Virus record (IMG/VR): IMGVR_UViG_3300036760_000091
Span: 1-58,355 of that record
Source: a virus
Length of the DNA: 58,355 nt
Strand: one strand, 5' to 3'
Numbering within the stretch: the first letter of the stretch is position 1; the number at the start of each line of letters is the position of its first letter. Below, piece by piece: positions 19,928 through 35,635 of the stretch. Under the pieces are notes generated by a model, which saw only the letters and a program-made list of their open reading frames with translations, made no database searches and was not told where the DNA came from. A program made the translations under genes and the position numbers.

Positions 19928-20598
19928 TGGATTCCCTTCAGGAACGGATCGACGGATGCCGGCAGATGGCGGCGCAGGGTGCGCCTCGGCTCGAGTCGCT
20001 CGCGGCTGAAGACCCCAGGCTGTCGGCCGTCCACGTCTTTGACGACGTCCTGCCGGACCCCCTCAAGTACCGCGCGCGCGCGCTGGCGCTGCCGTTCAGC
20101 AGCGTGCCGGTGGCCGAGGGCGTCATCTTCCACGGGATCGCGCCCTGCGCTGATCCGACGCTGCCAGAGGCCCTCCGGCGACTCTTCCCAGGCGTCGACA
20201 CCGGCCTGACGTTCTTCAGGCAGAGTCCCGCCGGCCAGCAGGAGCCGAACTACATCCACACCGACCGGGACATGGGCGACTGGACGGCCATCCTGTACTT
20301 GAACCCGGAGCCTGCCGAGGGCGACGGGACGACGTTCTGGGAGAGCCGATCGACGGGCGCGCGGGCGAGTCAGGCGAAGACGGAAGCTGACTTCCATGCC
20401 GAGTGGCCGACGTGGCGCGATCTGTCGGCCTGGCGGCGCTGGCGCACGGTGGACGCGAAGTTCAACCGCCTGCTTGTCTTCTCCGCGCCGATGTTTCACT
20501 CGCGGGCGATTCACGAGAACTACGGAACAGCCGGCGTTGACGCGCGGCTGATTCAGCTGGTCTTCGGCCGAGGGCTACTCACGGAGCCGACACGATGA
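19927..20598 (+). CDS. 2-oxoglutarate/Fe(II)-type oxygenase (224 aa)
   Basis: YIHTDRDMGDWTAILYLN supplies the H-x-D iron ligands and FSAPMFHSRAIHENYG the distal His, followed by the Arg (ARLIQLVF) expected to bind 2-oxoglutarate. The GDGTTFW turn between them is typical of the double-stranded beta-helix. It probably hydroxylates a protein, peptide or nucleotide; the substrate cannot be told. ATG overlaps the GNAT stop, so the two enzymes are coupled. Confidence 0.75.
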   Translation: MDSLQERIDGCRQMAAQGAPRLESLAAEDPRLSAVHVFDDVLPDPLKYRARALALPFSSVPVAEGVIFHGIAPCADPTLPEALRRLFPGVDTGLTFFRQSPAGQQEPNYIHTDRDMGDWTAILYLNPEPAEGDGTTFWESRSTGARASQAKTEADFHAEWPTWRDLSAWRRWRTVDAKFNRLLVFSAPMFHSRAIHENYGTAGVDARLIQLVFGRGLLTEPTR

Positions 20599-21092
20599 CT
20601 GGCATCTACGCGATCACGAACCGGACTACCGGCCGACACTACATCGGCAGCTCGAACGATGTTGAGCACCGCTTTCGTCAGCACCTGCAGGACCTGCGCG
20701 CTGGTAATCATGGAAACGTCAGGCTCCAGAGTTCATGGAACATGCACGGCGAGGTCGCCTTCGACTTCGAGGTAATCGAAGAGGTCAACGCCGAGAATCT
20801 TCTCCGCAGAGAGCAGATGTATCTCGACGCCTTTTTCGATGACCTCTACAACCTGTCGAAGATGGCTCACTGTCCAAACGCCCCAGGCGTTGCTTTCAGT
20901 GAACGCCATCGCGCTGCGTTGAAGCGTTCAAACAGGAATAGCGGCCGACGTCTCAGCGAGTCAACACGCGCGAAGATGAGCGCGTCTCGGATGGGCCGCG
21001 CGCCAACAGTCGGAATGACAGGAAAACGCCACACAGCTGAAGCTCGTGCCCGGATGCGAGCGAATCGGCATGGAGTCGCCCGATGTGTATAG
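20595..21092 (+). CDS. GIY-YIG homing-type endonuclease 1 (165 aa)
   Basis: GIYAITN followed by HYIGSS is the GIY-YIG core, with the catalytic Arg in HRFRQHL and the Glu in RREQMYLD. The C-terminal region has NUMOD3-type motifs (SERHRAALKRSN, TRAKMSASRMG) that bind DNA. It is a close paralogue of the 22782 gene. ATG overlaps the previous stop and the end overlaps the next start, so it is slotted between virion genes without disrupting them. Confidence 0.88.
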   Translation: MTGIYAITNRTTGRHYIGSSNDVEHRFRQHLQDLRAGNHGNVRLQSSWNMHGEVAFDFEVIEEVNAENLLRREQMYLDAFFDDLYNLSKMAHCPNAPGVAFSERHRAALKRSNRNSGRRLSESTRAKMSASRMGRAPTVGMTGKRHTAEARARMRANRHGVARCV

Positions 21093-21763: not shown

Positions 21764-22777
21764 ATGGCTGGCAGCATTTACGACTCGTACGGTGAACAGC
21801 AGCAGGACGACTGGTTCGCCAACAACGCGCCGCCGGCTCCACCGCCGGTCGATCCCGCTGGCGCAGGACTGAATTACTCGGTCGAGACGGCCGCGCCCGA
21901 AACGCAGAGCCAAATTGACGGCACAGGCGACCCGACGGGGTCGAACGGGGACCCCTCACAGACCACATCGCCGCCAGCTGGCCCGCAGAATCCAGGCCCG
22001 CAAGGCGTAGGCGACCCAGGTAACAACTACAACGCCGTGGCGGGCTTCTATTCGACCTTCCTCGGGCGCGGTGGCAACGCCAGCGAAATTAACGGCTGGT
22101 TGAATAGCGGCCTGGACCTCGGCACGATTCAGAATCAGATCGCCAACTCGGCGGAAGCGCAAGCGTACGGATCACGAGGAAACAGCGGTGGTCAAGGGAC
22201 CATGCGCGACATCCTCGCGCCGTTCACCGGCAGCTGGACGCCGCAGAACGCGCCCGTCTTTGGGCAGGGCGGCTCTCCGATCGCGCCGTTCAGCTTCAGC
22301 CGGCAACTGCCCGTCTTTCAAAAGTTCGACGCGCCGACGCTCGAGCAGGCGCGGGACGAACCTGGGTTCCAGCTCGCCCTTCAGGAAGGGACCGAGGGGA
22401 TCCAGAACAGCGCGGCGGGCCGTGGCCTCACGCGGAGCGGAGGGACGCTCAAGGACATCCTCAAGTACAACCAGAACTTTGCCAACCAGAACTACCAGAA
22501 CGTCTACAACCGAGGGTTCAACACCTGGCAGGCCAACACGTCCGGGGACCTGAACAACTGGCTGACCGGCGCGAACGCGGACCTGAACAAATACAATACG
22601 AACGTCTCGACGCAGTACCAAATGCCGTTCGATGCCGCGATGCGCTCCACCGGCATGAACAACGACAACAGCTGGAAGAGCTACCTTCAGAACTACGACC
22701 AGTTCAAGTACAACGAACAGTGGCCGTACCAAGTTTTATCTGATCAACAAAAGATTGGAATTTCAGCGAATCAATAG
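21764..22777 (+). CDS. Putative internal virion protein with DUF4214-like segment (337 aa)
   Basis: ATG abuts the previous stop. Disordered acidic N-terminus; residues about 92-130 (FYSTFLGRGGNASEINGWL, then AQAYGS) resemble DUF4214 repeats; the rest is Asn/Gln-rich (NQNFANQNYQNVYNRGF). Ends four bases before the second GIY-YIG gene, so its C-terminus may have been changed by that insertion. Confidence 0.6.
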   Translation: MAGSIYDSYGEQQQDDWFANNAPPAPPPVDPAGAGLNYSVETAAPETQSQIDGTGDPTGSNGDPSQTTSPPAGPQNPGPQGVGDPGNNYNAVAGFYSTFLGRGGNASEINGWLNSGLDLGTIQNQIANSAEAQAYGSRGNSGGQGTMRDILAPFTGSWTPQNAPVFGQGGSPIAPFSFSRQLPVFQKFDAPTLEQARDEPGFQLALQEGTEGIQNSAAGRGLTRSGGTLKDILKYNQNFANQNYQNVYNRGFNTWQANTSGDLNNWLTGANADLNKYNTNVSTQYQMPFDAAMRSTGMNNDNSWKSYLQNYDQFKYNEQWPYQVLSDQQKIGISANQ

Positions 22778-22781
22778 AGCG

Positions 22782-23411
22782 ATGAGTATCAGCGGTATCT
22801 ACGCCATCACGCATCGTGCGACCAACCGACACTACGTCGGCAGTTCTACGCACGTCATGCGACGTTTGATGAATCACCGGACGCTTCTCCGACGCGGGGC
22901 GCATGAGAACCCACGTTTGCAGTTCGCGTGGAACAAACACGGCGAGGTGTCGTTCGATTTCGATCTTCTCGAAGAAGTAGACGAGGTCAACCTGTTGGCG
23001 TCAGAGCAGCGTTACCTAGACGCCTTCTTTGAGCAGCTCTACAACCTTTCGCGGGTCGCTGGCAAACCTCCTAGCCCGAGAGGGGTACCGAAGTCGCCCG
23101 AACATCGAGCAAAGATTGCGGAAGGAAATAGAGGCAAAGTGTTCACGGAAGAACGTCGCGCGAATCTCAGCGCAGCGCAAGCCAGAAGAATGGCCGATCC
23201 CGCCCGGAGGGTCAAGCAAGGTCTAACGCGGAAAGGCGTTCCGCTGTCTCCTGAGCATCGCGCGAAAGTCGCTGGCGTATGGAAGGGTCGGAGGCACACG
23301 CCTGAATCCAGAGCCAAGATCCGAGCGTCCGCCCTCGGCCACGGTTGTTCGGCTGAGACACGGGCCAAGATCGGCGCGGCGACCCGCGCTCGTTCCAAGA
23401 AGGCAGCTTAA
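22782..23411 (+). CDS. GIY-YIG homing-type endonuclease 2 (209 aa)
   Basis: SGIYAITH and HYVGSS form the core; EQRYLDAFFEQLYNLS matches endonuclease 1. The C-terminus carries four NUMOD3-like DNA-binding repeats (SPEHRAKIAEGNRG, SPEHRAKVAGVWKG, TPESRAKIRAS, SAETRAKIGAA). Start at ATG 22782 is chosen because it fits the family; TTG at 22755 is upstream in frame. Confidence 0.88.
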   Translation: MSISGIYAITHRATNRHYVGSSTHVMRRLMNHRTLLRRGAHENPRLQFAWNKHGEVSFDFDLLEEVDEVNLLASEQRYLDAFFEQLYNLSRVAGKPPSPRGVPKSPEHRAKIAEGNRGKVFTEERRANLSAAQARRMADPARRVKQGLTRKGVPLSPEHRAKVAGVWKGRRHTPESRAKIRASALGHGCSAETRAKIGAATRARSKKAA

Positions 23412-25079
23412 ATGTCCGGACAATTCGTCTTCCAGGCATATCAGCAGGACTCGTCTCCAGTGACGAACGCCATTATGGCGGGCGGTGCTGCGCGGGCGCG
23501 CGGCGCGGAGGTCGCCGGGCAGGCATGGGGGGGGGCTGTTCAGGGCGTCGGCCAAGCCGTCGGTCAAACGCTGAACGACATCCTGAAGTACCGATCGCCG
23601 GAAGCGCAGGCCAAGCGCGCTGAGGCTACGCTGGCGCTCGAAGACACGAACGACACGCTGGCGATGCAGAAGGCGATGCGCGCGGCCGGTGGCGATCCGA
23701 ACGCGGCGCTGATGTCGCTCGATAAGGCCGGCGCGATCGGCGCGTCGACGAAGCTCCGCACCCAGATGAACGTGGAGCGCAACAAGGGCCTCGACACGCA
23801 CATCAAGGAACTCACGGTCCAGAAGGACAACTTCGAGCAGGCCACGAAGCTGATCGGCTCGGTGCCGGAGGCCGACCCGAAAGACCCGGACAGCCTCGCC
23901 AAAGCGAGCGAGGTCTACAAGTCGATCGTCCCGCAGTTGCGCGGGCTGCTGTCCGGCCCGGTGGACCCGGCCACGGGAAAGCCGACGCCCGGTGTCGGCG
24001 CGTCGATTCCGGACGAGTACAACCCGGACACCGTCCAGAAGATGCGGACCCTCGGGATGAGTGTCACCGAGGCCCTCAGCTACCGGAAGGAAGCGGCGGC
24101 GGAAGCGCGCGCGGCGCTCACGGGGGCCACGACGAAGGCCGAGCTGATCGACAAGATGACGACGTCGACGGCGAACTACCTCCGGACGGTCGACAACCCG
24201 GCGGAGTGGGCGAAGACGCTGGCTGGCGTCAAGCAGCTGGTGCCGCCGGACGTGGCGGACGCCATCATCGGCCGGTTCGATCAGACCTTCGATCCGAAAG
24301 TCTCGCCGCAGAAGGCCGCTGTGCTGCTCGAGAAGCCGAAGGAGACGACGTACGAACCGAAGAACGTCATCGCCACCGTGGCCGGGAAGCGCGTCCTACT
24401 CAGCGCCGGGTTCGATAAAGAGAAAAACCAGTGGTTTGCCCCGGACGCGCCTGGGGTGCCGCTGAAGAACGTCGTGGAGTTCGTGAAGGGGCCGGAAGGG
24501 CAGCTGACCACGGCTGACCGGAGCGAACTGACGAAAGCCGTCCAGGACAACCCGCATATCTGGAACCAGCTGACCGAGACAGCGCGGACGCAGATTGCCG
24601 GCGACCTGCACAAGGCCGGGTTCAAGTTCCCGATGATCGACCACGGGGCGAGCGTGGCAGCGGCCGAACGCTGGAAGATGGGCGCGCTGAAGGCGCTCGA
24701 CACCGAGTACGGCACAAAGCGCGGACTGAAAGGGCCGTTCGGGATGACGCAGGCGCAGTACGACGCCAAGAAGGCCGAGATCCTGACGTCGTACAACCTC
24801 CAGATCGGGTCGCAGGGCCAGCCGCCGCCGAAGCCCGCCGCGCCGCCGCCAGCGCCGGCACAGCCCGCGCCTCCCGCTGCTCCGGCCGCTGCCGCACCGG
24901 TTGCGCCGGTTCCACCGCCAGCGCCGGCCGCGCCCGCCGCGCCAGCCAAGCCGGCGACGACCGCTCCGGCGGCTGGAGAAGTGCCGTTGCACCTTCCGAG
25001 CGGGAACATTGCGTGGTTCAAGGACCAGGCCGCGCTCGATGCGTTTCTGAAGAAGCACAACCTGACCGTTAAAAAATGA
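23412..25079 (+). CDS. Putative internal virion protein (555 aa)
   Basis: ATG abuts the GIY-YIG stop. Ala/Gly-rich N-terminus, then long helical region with no enzyme motif, and a Pro/Ala-rich linker (residues about 470-525) before a small C-terminal domain. Its stop overlaps the start of the giant gene that follows. Order and composition suggest an ejected protein. Confidence 0.6.
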   Translation: MSGQFVFQAYQQDSSPVTNAIMAGGAARARGAEVAGQAWGGAVQGVGQAVGQTLNDILKYRSPEAQAKRAEATLALEDTNDTLAMQKAMRAAGGDPNAALMSLDKAGAIGASTKLRTQMNVERNKGLDTHIKELTVQKDNFEQATKLIGSVPEADPKDPDSLAKASEVYKSIVPQLRGLLSGPVDPATGKPTPGVGASIPDEYNPDTVQKMRTLGMSVTEALSYRKEAAAEARAALTGATTKAELIDKMTTSTANYLRTVDNPAEWAKTLAGVKQLVPPDVADAIIGRFDQTFDPKVSPQKAAVLLEKPKETTYEPKNVIATVAGKRVLLSAGFDKEKNQWFAPDAPGVPLKNVVEFVKGPEGQLTTADRSELTKAVQDNPHIWNQLTETARTQIAGDLHKAGFKFPMIDHGASVAAAERWKMGALKALDTEYGTKRGLKGPFGMTQAQYDAKKAEILTSYNLQIGSQGQPPPKPAAPPPAPAQPAPPAAPAAAAPVAPVPPPAPAAPAAPAKPATTAPAAGEVPLHLPSGNIAWFKDQAALDAFLKKHNLTVKK

Positions 25080-28000
25080 GCGACGACCTCGACCTCGACA
25101 CGCTGGCGGCAGACGCTGGCGCGAAGGTCACGCCGCCGACGTTGCCGAGCACGCAGTACAGCGGCGTCATGGCGTTCAAGCCGGAACAGAAAGCTGAAGA
25201 CTGGGACGCGATCGCTAAAGCGGCCGGCGCGCGCGTCGGTGCGCCGAAAGCCGAGGCCCCGCTCGACGTCGAGGCCGCAGCTCGAGCCGAAGGGGCCACG
25301 ATTCGTCGTCCAGAAGCGCATATTGGACCAGCGCCGACACCACACGTCAAGGAGGGCGAATCGGTCCAGTTCCTCCATGTCGACGCCTCCGGGTTGCCAG
25401 CCGCGCCTCGTGTTGCGCCACCGAAAGCAGATGGACCGCCGCTTGTGAATGGCCGTCCTGTAGGCGACACGCGGAACGTCTGGGACCCCGTGGGCGCGAT
25501 GCAGAAGATCGGCGCAAGCGCGACGGCGATCAAGAGCACGTTGGACGCCGGGCAAGTGCTGTGGAAAAGCGACCACGACCGGAACGCGGCATCGGCGGCA
25601 ATCGAAGGACTATTTGAACTAACCAAGCCGTTGATGGTCACGCTCGGCGCGGCTGCGCCTGCGCACGCGGCCGTCGGCATCGCCGCGACGATGGCGGCCC
25701 AGAAGGCGACGTATGCCTTCGTGAAGTCCAACGGTGGGACGGATACGGATGCACGCCTGGCTGGTAATATCGCCGCCTTGCTCGCCGCCGGCATCAGCAG
25801 CAAGAAGGTGATCGAGGCTGGCAATAAGGGCGTCGAGGCCGCACTCGACGCAGCGAAGTCTGCCGCACGCCCGTTGGCGTTGTCGGCCAAGCTGGCTTAT
25901 GCGGGTTACGGTCCTGGAGACATTCCAGGTGGACGCGCTGTGCCGTTTGCCGCAGACGGGCCGAACGGCCCTAGCGACGTGCGGACCATTGTCGAGTTGT
26001 TCACAGAGGCTCCCAAAGGTACGCCGGCAGCGGACATCGACGCGATCCGACGCGGGTTCACTGGAGAGCCATCCCCAGGCCATGAGTTTACGGCGGTCGG
26101 AGAAGAGCCTCCCGTCCCGACGTCGGGACCGGTCGCTGTTGAACCAGAGATCAAGGCACTGGAGCGCGTACTCGAGGAACAGGACGCGCTGCGAAAGGCT
26201 GGAGCAGCCAAGACGGACCAGCTGTATGCCGCTGCAGCGCAGAAACTGGAGGGAGCCGATGCCACTCAAGCCGGGCAGCAGCCGGAGAACGATCTCGGAG
26301 AACATCTCGGAACTGACACACCACGGGTCCCGGCCACGGTCGCACCGGCAGATCGTAGCGATCGCCCTGTCGAACGCGGACCGGCATCCATCCCCACGGT
26401 CGAGCAGCCCGAGTCGACACTACGGGGCGGGGAACTGGAAGCATCACCACAAGCGGACCTGATCGAGCGGATCGTGACGGCCGCGCACCGCCCACGCCCA
26501 GAGGTCGCCCCGGTCACAGAACTCAAGGGCACGGACGGAAAGTGGTATCGAGGCAATGGGTTCCCTGTCGGCGTGCAGATGGTGGACCCGGTCGAGAAGC
26601 GCACGGCCGGCTATTCGCTCTTGATGCCGGACGGCACCCGCGCCGGCACGATTCGTCCGACGGCTGACGACGTTCACGCGGACATTCAGCGCGCCGAAAA
26701 TGCGAACGATCAGGATTTCCGCCAAGCTCTCAGGGAGATGCCGCCGGAGCGGTTGCAGTCACAGGCCGAGTTCTGGCTGAAGGACAAAGCGCCGAAGGCG
26801 AAGACCGTCGAGACGCCAGCGCCGGAGATGGGCGTCGGCACCACGTTCAACGCCGAGGGGAAGACGTGGCGTGTCCTGAAGTATCAGGAGCACGGCAAGG
26901 GCACGCAGCTCGAGCAGGTCGGGACAACGCTGGCTCCAACCAGCGGAGTGATGGCCCCTGGCCGAGTGACGAGTCGGTGGGTGTCTGATTCTGAACTTCG
27001 CGTGATGCTCGGAGAGCACGCGGCCGCAACGCCGAAGCCGGCGGTGGATCTGGTCATCCAGTCGCTCAGGCCTGGTGCCGCGCCTCGCACGGTCACGCTG
27101 CCGGCGACGTCCGCGCCTCCGGCGGTACTCGAGCAGCCGAAGCTGGCGGGCGCGGAGATCCGCCACAACACCCAGAACGGGGGCGTCGAGGTCAAATTCG
27201 CGTCGAAGCCGGCCCAGGAAGTCCTCGAGCAGTTGAAGGCCAAAGGCTTCAAATGGGCGAAGGGTAACAAGGTCTGGTACAAGAAGATTGCCGCGCCTGG
27301 GAACACGTCGGCCTACCTCTCCGAGCACGATCGGCTGACCAAGATCTTGCAGGGGATCGTCGGAACTGCGCCGGTCGCTGCCCCGTTGACAGCCTCGACG
27401 GAAGCGCCCACAGTAAAGGAAGCCGATGTCGCAACCAGTGGAACTGACGCCGGACAACTACCTGTCGCTGGAGGACCAGCCGCTGACGCCGTACGAGATG
27501 GAGGCGAAGGCGCACTGGGAGCGGTTCCTCCCGCGAGCGGTAGCCGAGTTGAACCGGAAGGGGCCGGAGGCGTTGGACACGGCGATTCGAGCAGCCGCGC
27601 ACCTGACGGAGTACCACACGCTGCGAGCGATGGCGGAGAATCCGGGGCTGCACGAACTCCAGGCGCGACGGATGTTCGAGAATCAGTGGCTCATGGTCCC
27701 ACCGGAGCCACCCACGACCCAGGGCACGCCGCCCTCGACTACCAACTCACGCCCGAGCGCATCGCCGCCATCATCGGACGCGGCCCGCTCGAACGCGCCC
27801 GAGGCAACCTCGAGGCCGTCGACCTCATAAAGCGGCTCACCGCCGAGAACCGCTACGCCACGCCAGACGAACAGGAGATCCTGGCGAAGTACGTCGGATG
27901 GGGCGCGAGTGAACTCGCCAAATTCCTCAGTGACTATCCCGACGCCGGCTGGAGCAAGAACGAGCGCGCGATCTGGGAGCGCATCAAGACCGACCTGACG

Positions 28001-31000
28001 GCGGACGAGCGGAAAGCTCTCGAGCGGTCGACCCCGAACGCCCATTTCACCTTCGATCTCTACCGGCCGATCTGGGAGGCGCTGGTCAACGCCGGCTTCA
28101 CGGGCGGGCGCATCCTCGAGCCGGCCGTCGGCACCGGGCACGCCTTCGGCTACATGCCGCCGGACGTCCGGGACGCCTCGACGCTGAACGCCGTCGAGCA
28201 GGAGCCGTTTACCGCCGCCATCGCCCATCATCTCTATCCCTCGGCGCGCGTGCAGCCGGTCGGCTATGAGAACGCCCGCATCGCGCGCGGGACGCAGGAC
28301 CTGGTCATCAGCAACGTGCCCTTCGGAGACTTCGGCGTGCAGGACAAGCACATGCCGAGCCTGCTGACGGACCCGAAGCAAGGGGGGATGATCCACAACT
28401 ACTTCTTCGGCAAGGCGCTCGAGCACGTCCGGCCGGGCGGGCTGATTGTCTTCGTGACCTCGAAAGGCACGATGGACGCGGCCGTCACCACGCGCATCCG
28501 CAGCTACCTGATGGAGCGCGCGGCCTTTGTCGGCGCGATCCGCCTGCCAAATACAGCCTTCGGGAAGTCGGCCAAAACGGAGGTCATCACCGACCTGATC
28601 GTCCTGCGCCGGCTGCTGCCTGGCGAGACGCCGGACCCGGTCCAGAGCAAGCTGTTCATCGAAGCCCCGAAGCACGAGGGCCTCACGAAGTCGGTCTACT
28701 CGCGCGGGCGGACGCAGGACAGCACGATCACGCGGTCGTCCTGGTATACCGCGCATCCGGAGTACATCCTCGGCACCGAGTCGCGCGAAGGCACGATGTA
28801 CGGCGGGGGCGAGTACACCGTCACGGCGACGACGCCGAACGTCACTGAGGCGATGGCGAACGCCCTGAAGACGTTGCTGCCACAAGGGACGTACGTGCCG
28901 GCGGTCCGCGAGATGGCGGTGCGGTCGACGGCCGTGGCGGAAGGCGCGTTCAAAGCCGGCGAACTGCGCGTCAACCCCCAGACGGGCAATATCGATCGCG
29001 TCGGTCCGACGGGCGAAATTAGCGATGCCACGCCGATGCGTCTCATCAAGGAGACGGGCGAGAAGATCGTGGACACGAAGGCGGTCCACCGCATCAAGGG
29101 GATGATCGCCATCCGGGATGCCCTGCGCGCCACGGTCGCGGCGATGCAGAACCGGGAATCGACGGATAAGGAGATCAAGGACCATCAGCGGGCGCTCCGC
29201 AGCCTGTATCAGCAGTTTGTCCAGAAGCACGGCGAGTTGAACAGCCGCAAGAATCGTGGCCTGTTCAAGAACGATCCGGAAAGCGCCAACCTGACGGGCC
29301 TCGAGCAACTCGAACTACAAACGAAGATCGAGCAGAAAGACGGGGAGCCGGTCCTCAAGATCTTCTACAGAGTCACCGGCCCGGCGGACATCTTCACGAA
29401 GCGGGTCATTAATCCGGACCCGCTGATCACGCACGTCGACACCCCAGAGGCGGCGCTCTTCGCGTCCCTCGGCCTCCACGGTCGGTTGGACTGGCCGTAC
29501 ATGGCCGAGATCAGCGGGCAGGACGTCGAGGATCTCAAGGCCGCGTTACTTCACGCCGGCATCGTCTTCGAGCAGCCAGACGGCGCGGTCGTCCTCGGAG
29601 AGGAATATCTCTCGGGTGACGTCGTCTCGAAGCTGGCGGACGCCGAAGCCGCGCATGATCCAAAGTTCGCACCGAACATTGAGGCGCTGAAGGCGGTTCA
29701 GCCAGCGCCGAAGACGGCGGACGACGTCGCGTCCGGCGCGGTGGCGATCGGCCTCGGGTCGCACTGGGTGCCGCCGTCGGACCTGTCGGCGTTCGCGGCC
29801 GAGCAGCTTCATCTACGCGGCGGGGTTCGGTACACGGTCGAGAGCACGGCGGCGCTCGTGACATGGACCGGCGGGTTCTCAGACAGCGCGGTCCGCGCCT
29901 CCGCGCAGCACCCGATGGCGGTACGGTACGGCGCTGGCGACGACGCCGAGACGCAGCCGGAGGTCTACGGCTTCCTTGATCTCCTGAATGACGCGCTGAA
30001 TCTCCGGACGCCTGACCTCGGCCACTACGTGCGCGAGGTCGACGGGTCGCGTCACTACGTGAAAGAGCCGAAGAACACGCTGGCGGCTCGGGCCAACGTG
30101 GAGGCCCTGCGGGACGCTTGGACCGAGTTCGTCTATAAGCACCCCGCCGTCATCGACGCCCTACTCGAGCAGTACAACGCCCGGTTCAACCGGACGGTCG
30201 AGCGCACCCTTGACGGGTCGCACCTGACGTTCCCAGGCATGGCGACGATCACGGATGCGGCCGGGAACGTCCTGCACTTCTTCCCGCACCAGAAGAACGT
30301 CGTCTGGAGGATTCTCGCCACCGGCAACACGCTGATGGCGCACGAGGTCGGTGCCGGGAAGACCTACGCCATGATCGCGGCGGCGATGGAGATGCGGCGC
30401 ACCGGCCGCGCCCAGAAGCCGATGATCACCGTTCCGACGTATCTCCTGCGCCAGTGGGCGAGCGATATCAAGACGCTCTACCCGGCGGCGAAGGTGCTGG
30501 CGTTCGATGAAAAGGACCTCGAGGCGTCCAAGCGGCGCGAAGCGATGGCCCGGATCGCGTTCGGGAACTGGGACATCGTCCTGGTGCCGCACTCGTCGTT
30601 CGAGTTGCTGAAGTCATCGCCGGAGCGGATCAAGGCCGTCACGCAGGAATGGATTGACGAACTGATTGCGGCCGAACTCGCAAACGGCGACGACGAAAGC
30701 CCGTCCGTCAAGCAGATGCAGCGGATGCGCCGGAAGATGGAGGACAAGGTCGCGGCGCTGACCGACTCGATCGACAAGGGCAACGACACGAACATGTATT
30801 GGGATCAGCTCGGCGTCGACGCGCTGATGGTGGACGAAGCCCACGCCTTCAAGAACCTCTTCTTCCACTCGAAGATCGACAACATGCGCGGCCTGAGCCG
30901 GAGCACGGCCGACAAGTCGCTCGACCTGCTGGTGAAGATCCGCGACATCAACGAGAACTCGAACTACCGGAACATCGTGCTGGCGACGGCGACCCCGGTG

Positions 31001-34000
31001 ATGAACTCGATCGGGGAAGTCTTCACGATGCAGCGGTATCTGCAACCGCAGACACTGAAGAAGTACGGCCTCGAGAACTTCGACAACTGGTACGCGATGT
31101 TCGCGCACGCCAAGATGGTGACGGAACAGCGCCAGGACGGCACCTACCACGAAGTCATGCGTCTAGCGTCGTTCAGCAACCTCCAGACGCTGTCGAAGAT
31201 GGTCCGGGAGGTCATGGACTACGTCGGGTGGGAGGACATGCCCTACCTGAAGCTGCCGAAGATTGCCGGCGGCAAGATCGAGATCGTCCAAACGCAGCCG
31301 GCCCCGATGTATGACCGCGCGCGCGAATGGTTCACCGAGCGCCTGGCGGCGATCAAAGCGAACCCCCCGCACATCAAGCGCGACGGCACCTACGTCGCTC
31401 CGGAGCGGATGGACATGCTGACCGGGCAGGGGATGGGCAAGCACGACAACATCCTGACCGTGATGACCGACGCGAAGAAGGCCGCGATCGACCTGCGGCT
31501 GATCCTCGGCAATCGCGCCAAAGACACCCCCGGCTCGCGTCTCCAGGTCGCGGCGAAGATGATGGTGGAGCAGTACAAGGCGACGAAGGCCGAGAAGGGC
31601 GTCCAATTGGTCTTCATGGACCTCGGAACACCGCCGAACCCCGGCGCGCTCGAGTTCCTCGGCAAGCTCAAGGTCGATGACGAGACGGAAGGTGAAGCCA
31701 ACGAGCAGGATCTGGTCGAGGACGCGCTGGACGCGACGGAGGCGGGCGGCTTCAATCTCTACGATGCGCTGAAGGCGCTGCTGGTCAAGCAGGGCGTGCC
31801 CTCGCACGAGATCGCGTATCTACACCAAGCCAATTCCTCGGCCGAGCGCATCGAGTTGTTCAAGGCGGCGAACAACGGCCGCGTGCGGTTCGTCTTCGCG
31901 TCGACCGACAAGGGTGGCGTGGGCATGAACGTCCAGACGCGCCTGTCGGCCATGTGGGAGATCGACCCGCCGCGTCACGGCCGGCCCGGCGATCTTCGGC
32001 AGCGCATGGGACGCATCATCAGGCAAGGCAACACGTATCCAGAGGTCCGGCTGGTGCGGTTCGTCACGCAGGGCACGACCGACGAGTGGACGTGGGGCAT
32101 CACGACAACGAAGGACTACCAGGTGCGGCAGTTCCTGAAGGGGAACCTGTCCACGATGGAGGATGTCGACCCGAACACGATGTCGCTCGAAGAGGCGATG
32201 ATGCGGTCGTCCAATGACCCGCGCACCGTCGAACTCACCGACCTAAAGAGCGTCCTACCGCGCCTCGAGGCGCAGGCGTCCTCGGCCGCGCGCGCCCTCG
32301 GGCAAGCGAAGACCGATATCGCCAACTCGACCGAGCGTCTGGGCTGGCTCAATCGGGACCTCTCGCAGTTGGAGAAGTGGATCGAGGACTCCTACCAGTC
32401 GAAGCGGAAAGACGGCTTCGAGTTGACCATCGGAGACACGACGTACACCGACCGAGCGGAGGCCCAGGCGGCGATTCTGAAGCGCCTGCGTCCGACGCCG
32501 GCGATGGGCGACTCGTTCACGCACGAGGCCGTCATCGGACGGATGGGCGATCGAGACATCACGGCCACCTGGGAGATCTTCAAACGGAAGGAACCGGAGT
32601 GGCGGGACGTCCAGGACGAAAAGACGGGCAAGATTCAGCAGAAGCATTTCATCGTCGACAAGCTGTACAAGCGCGTGGCGCTGACGATGCAGGGCGAGGA
32701 TATCGGCGCAATCAATCGCAGCGCCGTCACGCTGCACCAGGACGACCCGGACGACTACGCGACGTTCGGGAAGGGCCAGGACCCGATCGCCAGCCTCGTG
32801 AACGCCTACGAGAGCTTGCCGCTCCACCGCAACGATCTGACGGCCGGCATCCAGCAGGCGACCGAGAAGATCTCGCACGCCGAGGCCACGCTCAACTCGC
32901 CGTCGTCGGCAGTCGCCAAGCTCACGAAGACACGGGAGCGGATCGCGGCGCTTGAGAAGGAACTGACGGCAGAGAGCGCGGCCAAAGGCGCGGCGGCGAG
33001 TGCGGCGCTTCAGGCAAAGGCCCTGCCGGCGCACGCGGACGCCTCGAATGAACAGGGGTTCGTCAGCCTCGAGCCGCTGAAGCCGATCGCGGACGAACTG
33101 GTCAACCTGGTGGACATCGCGCGGTTCGTCTTCGCGCCGGACACCCGGACACCGGACACGCGCGCCGGGGCAGCGGTGTTGAGCAAGGCGATTGCCGCGC
33201 GGGATCAGACGCTGGCGCGGTTCCAGACGGCCGTAGAAGCCACCGAGCGCGTCATGGACGGCTGGTCACACGATCAGTCGCTCGCCTTCTGGGACGCGAT
33301 GGAAGGCGTCACGCCGACGTCGTCGCTCGGGGATCCGGATCTGATTCGGATGGCCGACGCGCTGAAGACGATCGTGGACTACTGGACCGACCAGGTCACG
33401 AAGCGCGGCCTCATCAAGGCGTACATCGAGCACTACTGGCCGCACGAATGGGTCAAGCGGGGGACGACGCTCGAGAAGGCGATCCGGGCCGTCTTCAGCC
33501 GCCGGCCGATTCAGGGGCCGGAGTCCTATCGGAAGCGGCGCACGATTCCCACAACCCGCGAAGGCATCGAGAAGCACAATCTCGAGCCGGTCAGCTGGAA
33601 CCCGGCCACGCAGTTGATGCGGAAGGTCGCGGAGATGGCGAACTCGGTCAAAGCCTACGAGATGCGGAAGGCGTTCAAGCGTCAGGGCCTGCTGAAGTTC
33701 GTCGGAGAGGGCCAGCGCCGGAAGTTGATCCGGGAGAAGCGGATCGGGCAGAACTGGATTCCGTATCCGGAGGCGTTCGTCGGCACCGTCTACGCCCCGC
33801 CCACGTTCATCACCGAGAGTGGCGAAGAGGCGCGCGTCCCGTTCGGGCGGCTCGTCGCCGGCCGCTACTACGGTCCGCCGGAACTCGTGCAGCTGGTGAA
33901 GAACCACCTGTCGGCGGGTCTGGTCGGGAAGAGTAAGGCATTCGACCTTGTGCGGAGTGCCTCAAACCTCCACACCCAGGCCCTGCTCGGCTGGTCGACG

Positions 34001-35635
34001 TTCCATCTCTGGTTGACCGGGTGGGAGTCGGTGACGTCAAAGCTCACGCTGGCGCTCGACCAGGCGCAGCGCGGCCAGTTCGCGGCGGCAGGGCGCACAG
34101 CCCTTGAGGTTGGCCCACACGGCGTCTTGGCCGACCTGGTGCGGGGGTATAAGGCCGTCCACGAGTACTACACGCTGGACCTGACGGGCAGCGGCCACGC
34201 GCTGACGGACGACCTGTCGCTCATCATCCGAGGGGGTGGCGGTGTCGGCTGGTCGCGCCTCGAGCACATGAGCGCACCGAACAAGCTGATGCGGCAAGGC
34301 CGGGCGGCAGCGGGCGCGCTCCAGCGCGGGGACGTCGGCGGTGCGCTGCTGCATGGCGCTGGCGCGGCGCTGGTCGGTCCGTTCGCGGCCATCGCGGCTC
34401 CGACGCAGTTGATGATGTCGACGTGGGTGCCGTACCTGAAGGTCGCGGCCTACCTTCAGGCGGCGCGGATGGAACTGGCGACGATGGGGACGGCGACGAT
34501 CGCGCAGCAGGACCAGCGCCTGCGCGAGGTCTGGGACTCGATGGACAACCGGTTCGGGTTGCTCCGTTACGAGAATCTGTACTGGAACAACGCCTTCAAG
34601 GACGCGCTGATGTCGGTCATCCGCGCGGTCGGGTTCACTGGCGGCAGCTTCCGCGAGTTTGGCGGGGCCATTCCGGCGCAGATCGGCCGGACGGTGAAGA
34701 ACGCGGGCGGCGCGAAGCTCCCGCCGATTCATCCGAAGATGCTCCACCTGATCTCGACGCTGCTCGTCTTCATGATGCTTGGCGCGGCCTGGATGAAGCT
34801 GACCAGCGGGAAATGGCCGAAGGACCGGAAGGACTTCTTCCACCCGAAGAACGGCGAGATCGATCCGTCGACGGGCGAAGAGCGGCGCGACGACGTCATC
34901 GGCTACCTCCGCACGTTGCAGACGTGGACCCATGACGCGAAGGGGGCCGCGCTCGGCAGCGTCCAGTCGCTCTACACGTCGCTGCTCGAGGCGATCGAGA
35001 ACCAAGACTACAACCGCAATCAGGTCTGGGACCCGGACGATCCGTGGACGAAGGAGCTGCTGGACGCGGTCAAGCACGTCCTCAGCGCGGCCACGCCGAT
35101 CCCGATTCAGAACGCCGAGCGACACGCCGAGCCGGGCGCGACGAAGTTGCAGCGGGTGGCGGAGGCGCTGAAGACGGCGCTGAAGCCCACGGTGCCCACG
35201 CCGCGCTGGCAGCTGCGAAGTGTGGCCGAGGACAAGATCTGGGAGTACTTGCCGCCGACGCCGAAGACCAAGCAGCAGGAAGAAGACGCGGAGATCCGCC
35301 GGCAGGTCCGGGTCGCCGTGCAGTCCGCCACCGGCAGCGAGACGATCGAACACGCGCTCGAGACGGGGAACCTCACCGCGAAGGAATACGAGCGGATCGT
35401 CAAGAGCGTCCAGTTCAACTGGATGCAGGCCAGCTTTAAGAAGCTGAACCTGATGCAGGCGCTGAAGGTCTACGAGCTGGCGACTCCGGACGAACGCGCG
35501 TCGTTGCTCGGCATCCTGCTCACGAAGGTCGACACGGGATTGAAGACCGCGAAGCCGCGCGACATGGACGAATTGTCGAATCGGCTCAACAAGATCGCGG
35601 GGCTTCCTTACACCGTAGAATCTACAGCGCCATGA
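25076..35635 (+). CDS. Giant polyvalent protein: DarB-like methyltransferase + SNF2 helicase
   Basis: 3519 codons in one frame. Residues 1-780: low-similarity N-terminal part with a GFKWAKGNKVWYKK module near 720-740, common in polyvalent proteins. From 888 (DYQLTPERI) a DarB-like region begins: methyltransferase motif I ILEPAVGTGHAFG (1013) and motif IV SNVPFGDF (1079). SNF2-type helicase: Walker A HEVGAGKT (1756-1763), DEAH box (1920-1923), C-terminal GGVGMN (2280) and GRIIRQGN. The last 850 residues look virion-like with one membrane segment. P1 DarB is carried in the virion and protects DNA from restriction, so this may be injected. Residues 395-462 and 784-880 overlap genes in another frame, so it could be two or three proteins; GTG 27686 is a possible internal start. 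Confidence 0.8.
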   Translation: MSDDLDLDTLAADAGAKVTPPTLPSTQYSGVMAFKPEQKAEDWDAIAKAAGARVGAPKAEAPLDVEAAARAEGATIRRPEAHIGPAPTPHVKEGESVQFLHVDASGLPAAPRVAPPKADGPPLVNGRPVGDTRNVWDPVGAMQKIGASATAIKSTLDAGQVLWKSDHDRNAASAAIEGLFELTKPLMVTLGAAAPAHAAVGIAATMAAQKATYAFVKSNGGTDTDARLAGNIAALLAAGISSKKVIEAGNKGVEAALDAAKSAARPLALSAKLAYAGYGPGDIPGGRAVPFAADGPNGPSDVRTIVELFTEAPKGTPAADIDAIRRGFTGEPSPGHEFTAVGEEPPVPTSGPVAVEPEIKALERVLEEQDALRKAGAAKTDQLYAAAAQKLEGADATQAGQQPENDLGEHLGTDTPRVPATVAPADRSDRPVERGPASIPTVEQPESTLRGGELEASPQADLIERIVTAAHRPRPEVAPVTELKGTDGKWYRGNGFPVGVQMVDPVEKRTAGYSLLMPDGTRAGTIRPTADDVHADIQRAENANDQDFRQALREMPPERLQSQAEFWLKDKAPKAKTVETPAPEMGVGTTFNAEGKTWRVLKYQEHGKGTQLEQVGTTLAPTSGVMAPGRVTSRWVSDSELRVMLGEHAAATPKPAVDLVIQSLRPGAAPRTVTLPATSAPPAVLEQPKLAGAEIRHNTQNGGVEVKFASKPAQEVLEQLKAKGFKWAKGNKVWYKKIAAPGNTSAYLSEHDRLTKILQGIVGTAPVAAPLTASTEAPTVKEADVATSGTDAGQLPVAGGPAADAVRDGGEGALGAVPPASGSRVEPEGAGGVGHGDSSSRAPDGVPHAASDGGESGAARTPGATDVRESVAHGPTGATHDPGHAALDYQLTPERIAAIIGRGPLERARGNLEAVDLIKRLTAENRYATPDEQEILAKYVGWGASELAKFLSDYPDAGWSKNERAIWERIKTDLTADERKALERSTPNAHFTFDLYRPIWEALVNAGFTGGRILEPAVGTGHAFGYMPPDVRDASTLNAVEQEPFTAAIAHHLYPSARVQPVGYENARIARGTQDLVISNVPFGDFGVQDKHMPSLLTDPKQGGMIHNYFFGKALEHVRPGGLIVFVTSKGTMDAAVTTRIRSYLMERAAFVGAIRLPNTAFGKSAKTEVITDLIVLRRLLPGETPDPVQSKLFIEAPKHEGLTKSVYSRGRTQDSTITRSSWYTAHPEYILGTESREGTMYGGGEYTVTATTPNVTEAMANALKTLLPQGTYVPAVREMAVRSTAVAEGAFKAGELRVNPQTGNIDRVGPTGEISDATPMRLIKETGEKIVDTKAVHRIKGMIAIRDALRATVAAMQNRESTDKEIKDHQRALRSLYQQFVQKHGELNSRKNRGLFKNDPESANLTGLEQLELQTKIEQKDGEPVLKIFYRVTGPADIFTKRVINPDPLITHVDTPEAALFASLGLHGRLDWPYMAEISGQDVEDLKAALLHAGIVFEQPDGAVVLGEEYLSGDVVSKLADAEAAHDPKFAPNIEALKAVQPAPKTADDVASGAVAIGLGSHWVPPSDLSAFAAEQLHLRGGVRYTVESTAALVTWTGGFSDSAVRASAQHPMAVRYGAGDDAETQPEVYGFLDLLNDALNLRTPDLGHYVREVDGSRHYVKEPKNTLAARANVEALRDAWTEFVYKHPAVIDALLEQYNARFNRTVERTLDGSHLTFPGMATITDAAGNVLHFFPHQKNVVWRILATGNTLMAHEVGAGKTYAMIAAAMEMRRTGRAQKPMITVPTYLLRQWASDIKTLYPAAKVLAFDEKDLEASKRREAMARIAFGNWDIVLVPHSSFELLKSSPERIKAVTQEWIDELIAAELANGDDESPSVKQMQRMRRKMEDKVAALTDSIDKGNDTNMYWDQLGVDALMVDEAHAFKNLFFHSKIDNMRGLSRSTADKSLDLLVKIRDINENSNYRNIVLATATPVMNSIGEVFTMQRYLQPQTLKKYGLENFDNWYAMFAHAKMVTEQRQDGTYHEVMRLASFSNLQTLSKMVREVMDYVGWEDMPYLKLPKIAGGKIEIVQTQPAPMYDRAREWFTERLAAIKANPPHIKRDGTYVAPERMDMLTGQGMGKHDNILTVMTDAKKAAIDLRLILGNRAKDTPGSRLQVAAKMMVEQYKATKAEKGVQLVFMDLGTPPNPGALEFLGKLKVDDETEGEANEQDLVEDALDATEAGGFNLYDALKALLVKQGVPSHEIAYLHQANSSAERIELFKAANNGRVRFVFASTDKGGVGMNVQTRLSAMWEIDPPRHGRPGDLRQRMGRIIRQGNTYPEVRLVRFVTQGTTDEWTWGITTTKDYQVRQFLKGNLSTMEDVDPNTMSLEEAMMRSSNDPRTVELTDLKSVLPRLEAQASSAARALGQAKTDIANSTERLGWLNRDLSQLEKWIEDSYQSKRKDGFELTIGDTTYTDRAEAQAAILKRLRPTPAMGDSFTHEAVIGRMGDRDITATWEIFKRKEPEWRDVQDEKTGKIQQKHFIVDKLYKRVALTMQGEDIGAINRSAVTLHQDDPDDYATFGKGQDPIASLVNAYESLPLHRNDLTAGIQQATEKISHAEATLNSPSSAVAKLTKTRERIAALEKELTAESAAKGAAASAALQAKALPAHADASNEQGFVSLEPLKPIADELVNLVDIARFVFAPDTRTPDTRAGAAVLSKAIAARDQTLARFQTAVEATERVMDGWSHDQSLAFWDAMEGVTPTSSLGDPDLIRMADALKTIVDYWTDQVTKRGLIKAYIEHYWPHEWVKRGTTLEKAIRAVFSRRPIQGPESYRKRRTIPTTREGIEKHNLEPVSWNPATQLMRKVAEMANSVKAYEMRKAFKRQGLLKFVGEGQRRKLIREKRIGQNWIPYPEAFVGTVYAPPTFITESGEEARVPFGRLVAGRYYGPPELVQLVKNHLSAGLVGKSKAFDLVRSASNLHTQALLGWSTFHLWLTGWESVTSKLTLALDQAQRGQFAAAGRTALEVGPHGVLADLVRGYKAVHEYYTLDLTGSGHALTDDLSLIIRGGGGVGWSRLEHMSAPNKLMRQGRAAAGALQRGDVGGALLHGAGAALVGPFAAIAAPTQLMMSTWVPYLKVAAYLQAARMELATMGTATIAQQDQRLREVWDSMDNRFGLLRYENLYWNNAFKDALMSVIRAVGFTGGSFREFGGAIPAQIGRTVKNAGGAKLPPIHPKMLHLISTLLVFMMLGAAWMKLTSGKWPKDRKDFFHPKNGEIDPSTGEERRDDVIGYLRTLQTWTHDAKGAALGSVQSLYTSLLEAIENQDYNRNQVWDPDDPWTKELLDAVKHVLSAATPIPIQNAERHAEPGATKLQRVAEALKTALKPTVPTPRWQLRSVAEDKIWEYLPPTPKTKQQEEDAEIRRQVRVAVQSATGSETIEHALETGNLTAKEYERIVKSVQFNWMQASFKKLNLMQALKVYELATPDERASLLGILLTKVDTGLKTAKPRDMDELSNRLNKIAGLPYTVESTAP
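26114..26129. repeat. Dispersed palindrome, copy 3
   Basis: GTCCCGACGTCGGGAC within the giant gene, read as VPTSG, the same phase as copy 1. Confidence 0.85.
26259..26462 (+). CDS. Overprinted small gene inside the giant ORF (67 aa)
   Basis: Lies in a different frame from the giant gene, with its own Shine-Dalgarno (GGAGGG about 5-7 bases before ATG). MPLKPGSSRRTISENISEL and RQIVAIALSNA match a small basic protein that I know from many phages (MPLKxGxSxxxISxNI then QAVAIAL, a DUF6496-like type). The giant frame over the same bases is low-complexity and unlike a domain, so this frame is the conserved one here. Confidence 0.7.
   Translation: MPLKPGSSRRTISENISELTHHGSRPRSHRQIVAIALSNADRHPSPRSSSPSRHYGAGNWKHHHKRT
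27426..27830 (+). CDS. Second overprinted gene inside the giant ORF (134 aa)
   Basis: AAAGGA lies 5 bases before ATG. Residues 1-95 are protein-like (DNYLSLEDQPLTPYEMEAK, YHTLRAMAENPGLHELQARR, MFENQWLM), while the giant frame across 27426-27700 is Gly/Ala/Asp low-complexity. After about 27720 the situation reverses: this frame turns Ser/Pro-rich and the DarB frame becomes conserved. So the functional gene probably ended near 27720 originally. Family unknown. Confidence 0.65.
   Translation: MSQPVELTPDNYLSLEDQPLTPYEMEAKAHWERFLPRAVAELNRKGPEALDTAIRAAAHLTEYHTLRAMAENPGLHELQARRMFENQWLMVPPEPPTTQGTPPSTTNSRPSASPPSSDAARSNAPEATSRPSTS

Follow-up and report, generated by a model that had tools for sequence, protein, structure and literature searches.

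A small phage gene of the phrog_2423 family lies out of frame inside a giant open reading frame (ORF) in the viral DNA analysed here (the window: all 58,355 nucleotides of IMG/VR record IMGVR_UViG_3300036760_000091). Probably, a giant DarB-like frame was laid over this older gene, which would retain its own internal ribosome site, while its out-of-frame reading would give the giant protein a disordered linker. The small gene is almost certainly real and nested, and the giant frame very probably encodes one protein across it. The features concerned are the following.

25076-35635, plus strand: giant ORF, 3519 amino acids, DarB-like polyvalent protein (N6 methylase and SNF2 helicase).
25076-26258, plus strand: N-terminal module of the giant frame, 5' of nested gene 1 (giant-frame codon score).
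26248-26253, plus strand: Shine-Dalgarno sequence of nested gene 1, GGAGGG, ending five bases 5' of the ATG (from the sequence).
26259-26462, plus strand: nested gene 1, 67 amino acids, phrog_2423 family, in the +1 frame of the giant ORF (HMM match and codon usage).
26463-27400, plus strand: middle module of the giant frame, with a primase-like stretch at about residues 688-744 (codon score and PHROG match).
27415-27422, plus strand: Shine-Dalgarno-like sequence of nested gene 2, AAAGGAAG (from the sequence).
27426-27830, plus strand: nested gene 2, 134 amino acids, in the +1 frame of the giant ORF like nested gene 1 (codon usage).

The start of the giant ORF overlaps the stop codon of the preceding gene at 25079, and nested gene 1 runs for 67 codons from an ATG to a TGA. 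The first-pass annotation had described this 67-codon ORF as a recognisable small phage protein with its own Shine-Dalgarno sequence, in a frame other than that of the giant ORF, and had called the giant reading across it low-complexity. We confirmed the ribosome site and the +1 frame, and the description of the giant reading was fair. The protein was indeed recognisable: residues 1 to 50 matched positions 1 to 47 of the 52 positions of the phrog_2423 model (PHROGs v4) with an E value of 1.6e-9, and a search of the whole 58-kb record returned nested gene 1 at 1.2e-10 and no second copy. It shares the pattern MPL...G.S...I..NI...G...Q.A.A...A with the phrog_2423 members, including the residues that were near invariant in an alignment of 23 members (M1 P2 L3, G23, Q31, A34, and A40 in window numbering), and the last 20 or so residues showed no conservation within the family. 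No family was reported when the protein was searched against Pfam and NCBIfam.

As a chance control, the giant frame was recoded synonymously 3000 times, and codon usage was scored with a model for which eleven window genes with PHROG support served as the training set. The small frame at 26259-26462 was open in 74.5% of the recodings, and thus its openness alone is weak evidence. The small ORF could be a chance match generated by the giant protein's own codons: since the two frames have bases in common, HMM scores as high as 29.8 arose among the recodings. The observed score, however, was 75.4. The codon score of the small frame (+0.18) was above all 3000 recodings (maximum, 0.06), and that of the giant frame across the same stretch (-0.10) was below all 3000 (mean, 0.45). 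With the Shine-Dalgarno sequence, and with the same arrangement recurring in unrelated giant genes (see below), a match of this origin is scarcely credible, and codon usage and the HMM score together ruled out a chance open frame as the source of nested gene 1.

Along the window, the codon profile was positive in the giant frame, then in the small frame inside nested gene 1, and then in the giant frame again. All 10 windows starting between 25091 and 26036 had giant-frame scores above zero (0.10 to 0.66), and the middle module scored from 0.29 to 1.01. When the whole giant ORF was scanned in 347 windows of 150 nucleotides, the score of an off frame was more than 0.3 above that of the giant frame in two places only, nested gene 1 and 27416-27775. 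The second place corresponds to nested gene 2, the sole other off-frame island of the giant ORF, which passed the recoding test more strongly than nested gene 1: over 27426-27710, its small-frame score of 0.80 exceeded all 3000 recodings and the giant-frame score of -0.71 was under all of them. Nested gene 2 had no significant match to protein families or phages. The two nested genes separate the N-terminal module, the middle module with its primase-like stretch, and the DarB core from one another.

The giant ORF could instead be two or three separate genes that flank the small genes, with the frame open by chance in a GC-rich genome. An open frame across nested gene 1 is indeed expected in the 74.5% of recodings given above, and chance off-frame runs were found in GC-rich contigs, in 10 of 806 long ORFs for each off frame. 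However, the giant-frame coding score was positive on both sides of each nested gene, and the comparisons with other phages described below also argue against separate genes.

The core of the giant protein was covered by phrog_10089 (DarB-like antirestriction) at residues 818 to 2659. The Pfam models SNF2-rel_dom and Helicase_C both exceeded their cutoffs, the N6_Mtase match (18.2 bits) was just under its cutoff of 20.4, and the PHROG matches in the middle module, at residues 688 to 744 and 697 to 738, were weak. The giant ORF is preceded by a gene block in which, among others, a head-closure protein and a DNA-ejection protein are encoded, and the portal and major head protein genes lie farther upstream than that block. 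The position of the giant ORF after the ejection gene hints that its product may travel in the virion and be injected. We also noticed, among the virion genes that precede the giant ORF, two homing-endonuclease-like genes at 20595-21092 and 22755-23411 (phrog_314 and related).

Searches with the N-terminal part and core of the giant protein gave no usable relative among the viral contigs and, in phages, matched only a stretch of about 53 residues (685 to 737). Since the giant gene of the window has no close relative, nesting was tested in other phages. As no relative of the giant N-terminal part was found, the evidence on selection in the two frames of the window comes from codon usage.

phrog_2423 comprises small proteins that are widespread among phages and is annotated as being of unknown function. 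Its members are usually standalone genes or in-frame N-terminal domains, whereas the window copy is nested in a DarB-like gene in another frame. The gene sits among head genes in several named phages, in contrast to the window copy, which is outside the head-gene cluster: it is 3' of a head morphogenesis gene in KBS-S-2A, 5' of the scaffold and major head genes in phiEap-2, 3' of the coat gene in a phage whose head genes resemble those of P22, and flanked by head morphogenesis and protease genes in Pbunavirus. The domain forms the in-frame start of the head maturation protease in an Obolenskvirus, and the genes of KPP22M1 and Ab28 carry the database label "virion protein." The gene follows an endolysin gene in Pseudomonas phage O4 and lies amid tRNA genes, 5' of the terminase, in Cronobacter phage A24. 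Among 288 bacterial genomes of one phylum, the only copy was in the genome already known to hold one. Additionally, we observed the domain in frame at the start of a protein of about 1998 amino acids (contig L018, from 6001), a fused alternative to nesting.

The AlphaFold model of nested gene 1 (mean pLDDT, 78) predicted two helices, at residues 9 to 22 and 29 to 42, and a flexible tail, and Foldseek returned nothing from the PDB at an E value of 0.001 or lower. The likeliest role of the phrog_2423 protein would be that of a virion-associated basic helical hairpin. In a profile comparison, some 20 residues (P0002, residues 21 to 40 or so) resembled TAL effector repeats; this resemblance was discarded, as the low E values came from summed repeats and no single stretch passed.

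To count the family, relatives of nested gene 1 were gathered from virus contigs and genome contigs, hits scoring below 40 were dropped, and genes 85% identical were merged, which reduced 430 hits to 270 non-redundant members. Of these, 261 were not within a same-strand frame of at least 400 codons, and standalone genes are therefore the common state. The other nine were inside such a frame, all nine in the identical relative frame and none in the other: the window, L013 (listed as duplicate L082), L048, L134, L387, L286, L404, L405, and L411, with L404, L405, and L411 belonging to a single clade (clade V). The domain was free of stops in the nesting phase in 57 of the 270 genes and in the other phase in 14. 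Because the nesting phase is intrinsically stop-poor, the constant relative frame is explained without a special mechanism, and we did not count it as evidence for one.

We dropped L286 (a terminase-like container; GC, 0.68) from the nesting cases, since the terminase frame of its relatives (L031, L032, and L034) ends 23 nucleotides short of the small gene and in another phase. L168, L143, L212, and other frames of 120 to 360 codons were treated as possibly due to chance. Nesting with the same strand and frame was thus found in about five settings other than the window. A clear Shine-Dalgarno sequence preceded the nested gene in L013, L048, and L387 and a weak one in L134, where nesting occurs at a GC content of 0.37, a value that speaks against frames held open merely by GC-rich sequence. 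The upstream parts of the window, L013, L048, L134, and L387 did not convincingly resemble clade V or one another, and common descent of all of the nesting cases was rejected on that ground. Comparison of whole containers gave a weak match between L048 and L387 (23% identity over 317 amino acids; E value, 0.001), and these two nestings may therefore not be independent. L134 and L403 have a downstream module in common, with 31% identity.

To collect clade V, we queried the virus contigs with A2, an alignment of the stretch of giant protein that directly precedes the small gene and does not contain it. This search found 58 loci on 57 contigs, and in 57 of the loci the small gene was nested at the same place in the giant ORF; at the remaining locus (L523), the contig ends 57 bases past the match, too soon for a decision. 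Relatives with a conserved giant frame but no conserved small one, which the first-pass annotation had named as the case against its claim, were sought in clade V, and none was present among the 58 loci, L523 being cut by the contig end. The nested start codon was ATG in all 59 sequences examined. The N-terminal parts of the giant protein were mostly 26 to 29% identical between the two subclades. The nested genes of subclade 1 are preceded by a Shine-Dalgarno-like AAAGGAAAG, and no clear Shine-Dalgarno sequence was seen before the nested ATG of subclade 2 (e.g., AAAGCAGAAAAAGATT). One annotated record of 36.9 kb contains adaptor, scaffold, and major head genes and, 5' of the giant gene, encodes a large protein with a weak internal-virion match, and from this gene content clade V appears to be podovirus-like.

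Several other features of clade V were observed. Some of the cassettes that follow the small gene contain an extra nested ORF (L404, 6777-7007; G005, 26013-26243) with GGAGGAG upstream, whose product (MNKPQNN..EDVETEEKDG..) was recognisable at 40 to 52% identity in remoter cassettes. The giant proteins of L145, L406, and L404 repeat a short motif, FMP or RFMP, at module boundaries, possibly a linker or cleavage signal. One contig (G009; loci L501 and L524) has two different copies of the nested small gene in two stretches of giant ORF, either an assembly artefact or a true duplication.

The 59 clade V sequences were used to count substitutions in the overlap: 8 identical duplicates were removed and 1 of the remaining 51 was left unpaired, giving 25 disjoint pairs with 145 substitutions, a design that reduces but does not remove the non-independence of sites in related sequences. 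Changes that were synonymous in the small frame and nonsynonymous in the giant frame were far in excess (93 observed versus 28 expected), and those that were synonymous in the giant frame and nonsynonymous in the small frame were depleted (14 versus 36.6). None of the 94 small-synonymous substitutions created a stop in the giant frame, versus 11.9 expected (P = 2.9e-6), and the only large indel in the overlap, of 12 nucleotides, preserved both frames. With pairs that were more than 15% different or too short omitted, the dN/dS-like ratio in the overlap was 0.158 in the small frame versus 2.43 in the giant frame (23 of 25 pairs each); in the giant frame it was 0.063 upstream of the small gene (6 of 25 pairs) and 0.127 downstream (3 of 25 pairs). 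An earlier count with seven clade V members gave the same picture. These counts and ratios show that in clade V the small protein sequence is under strong purifying selection and that the giant amino acids in the overlap are free, with selection against stops only.

The selected absence of giant-frame stops and the open frame at 57 of 58 loci argue directly against separate genes with a frame open by chance, and we regard that explanation of the giant ORF as improbable. The first-pass annotation had also offered true dual coding, in which both amino acid sequences of the overlap would be functional and constrained. In its favour, both frames are kept open, even through the one large indel. However, the giant residues are free in clade V, with a giant-frame ratio well above that of the small frame, and giant-synonymous changes were no commoner among small-synonymous changes than expected (share of 0.011 versus 0.034), so that dual coding in this full sense is highly improbable.

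The clade V small gene also lies at a DNA seam. Between the subclades, with up to 250 pairs sampled per class, DNA identity rose from 0.66 in the 300 nucleotides upstream to 0.89 in the small gene and fell back to 0.67 downstream, a region in which the cassettes of most pairs differ (median identity, 0.64). Identity at fourfold sites was 0.37 to 0.38 upstream, near saturation, versus 0.67 to 0.745 in the small gene. In the 56 of 57 nested loci that were long enough for typing, there were 14 cassette types 3' of the small gene, 7 of which were found behind both N-terminal parts, and the C-terminal end of the giant protein was conserved in the 40 complete ends listed. The 3' third of the small gene tracked the cassette (permutation P = 0.0034) and the 5' third did not (P = 0.25), in a test on 740 pairs, 73 with the same cassette and 619 with different ones, that excluded pairs of intermediate cassette identity (0.72 to 0.78) or with short flanks. 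These results show that cassettes are exchanged in clade V, with breakpoints in or near the small gene. As a pattern in this clade, the small gene as the seam where a fixed N-terminal part meets exchangeable cassettes is well supported.

A gene conserved for its own protein leaves a short island of shared DNA at the cassette boundary, and such an island would allow homologous recombination. It is quite possible, although we would not call it probable, that selection maintains the nested small gene as a recombination seam within which phages exchange effector cassettes, and that its out-of-frame reading supplies a tolerant linker in which the giant frame always stays open. Slow change at the silent sites of the small gene, which are first-codon positions of the giant frame, could explain part of the seam signal; contrary to this account, changes at these sites are common. 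The pattern itself was observed in clade V, whereas selection of the small gene for this role, and the extension of the role to the window, would be further steps.

Our preferred explanation for the window remains a giant frame overlaid on an older gene. Nested gene 1 would be translated from an internal ribosome site within the message of the giant protein. The small gene would be the older element, with the giant frame laid over it later, and a ribosome translating the giant frame would read it out of frame, producing a disordered linker rich in Q, E, R, and P between two modules. Selection would hold the small protein sequence and a stop-free giant frame but not the sequence of the linker. 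In the window itself, we directly observed the match to the family, the ribosome site, the codon-adapted small frame, and giant-frame coding on both sides; selection on the two frames and the seam position were observed in clade V instead. By inference, the window behaves like clade V, both proteins are made, and the small protein belongs to the virion.

The other option of the first-pass annotation was a giant ORF fused from formerly separate genes across a small gene. A giant ORF that extends across an older small gene at a module boundary fits the anatomy best, given two nested genes between modules and a mostly standalone family; no split-gene or empty-site relative of any container was found. 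Lacking an ancestor with a standalone small gene and a split container, we read the direction of events from the commonness of the two states. Origin by fusion and origin by insertion are both compatible with an overlaid giant frame.

Gene callers normally retain one of two nested frames, and conserved small genes inside giant phage genes would consequently be lost from annotation. No prior report of phrog_2423 nesting in giant genes was found in the open-licence PMC literature. Overlaying would be a route by which multidomain injected proteins are stitched together and the genes between their modules are not lost, and the seam role, if true, would tie gene overlap to module shuffling in phage effectors. 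As in the viral overprinting treated in PMC8227390, two same-strand frames occupy one stretch of DNA; there, however, a novel frame arises inside an old gene, whereas here the usual story would be reversed, with the small old gene constrained and the larger frame laid across it. The large polyvalent proteins described by Iyer et al. (2017; PMC5512222) provide the closest comparison for the giant protein. The DarB-like members described there have an N-terminal LPD36 domain before the methylase, and, like the window protein, they fuse a methylase to an SNF2 helicase and are encoded after an ejection-type virion gene; the Pfam and PHROG matches reported for the window protein did not include LPD36. 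We saw no description of nested genes in that paper, whose main text does not contain the word "overlapping." The polymorphic toxin cassette systems treated in the same source resemble clade V in having a fixed N-terminal part and exchangeable downstream cassettes, but in clade V the junction is a nested, independently selected gene.
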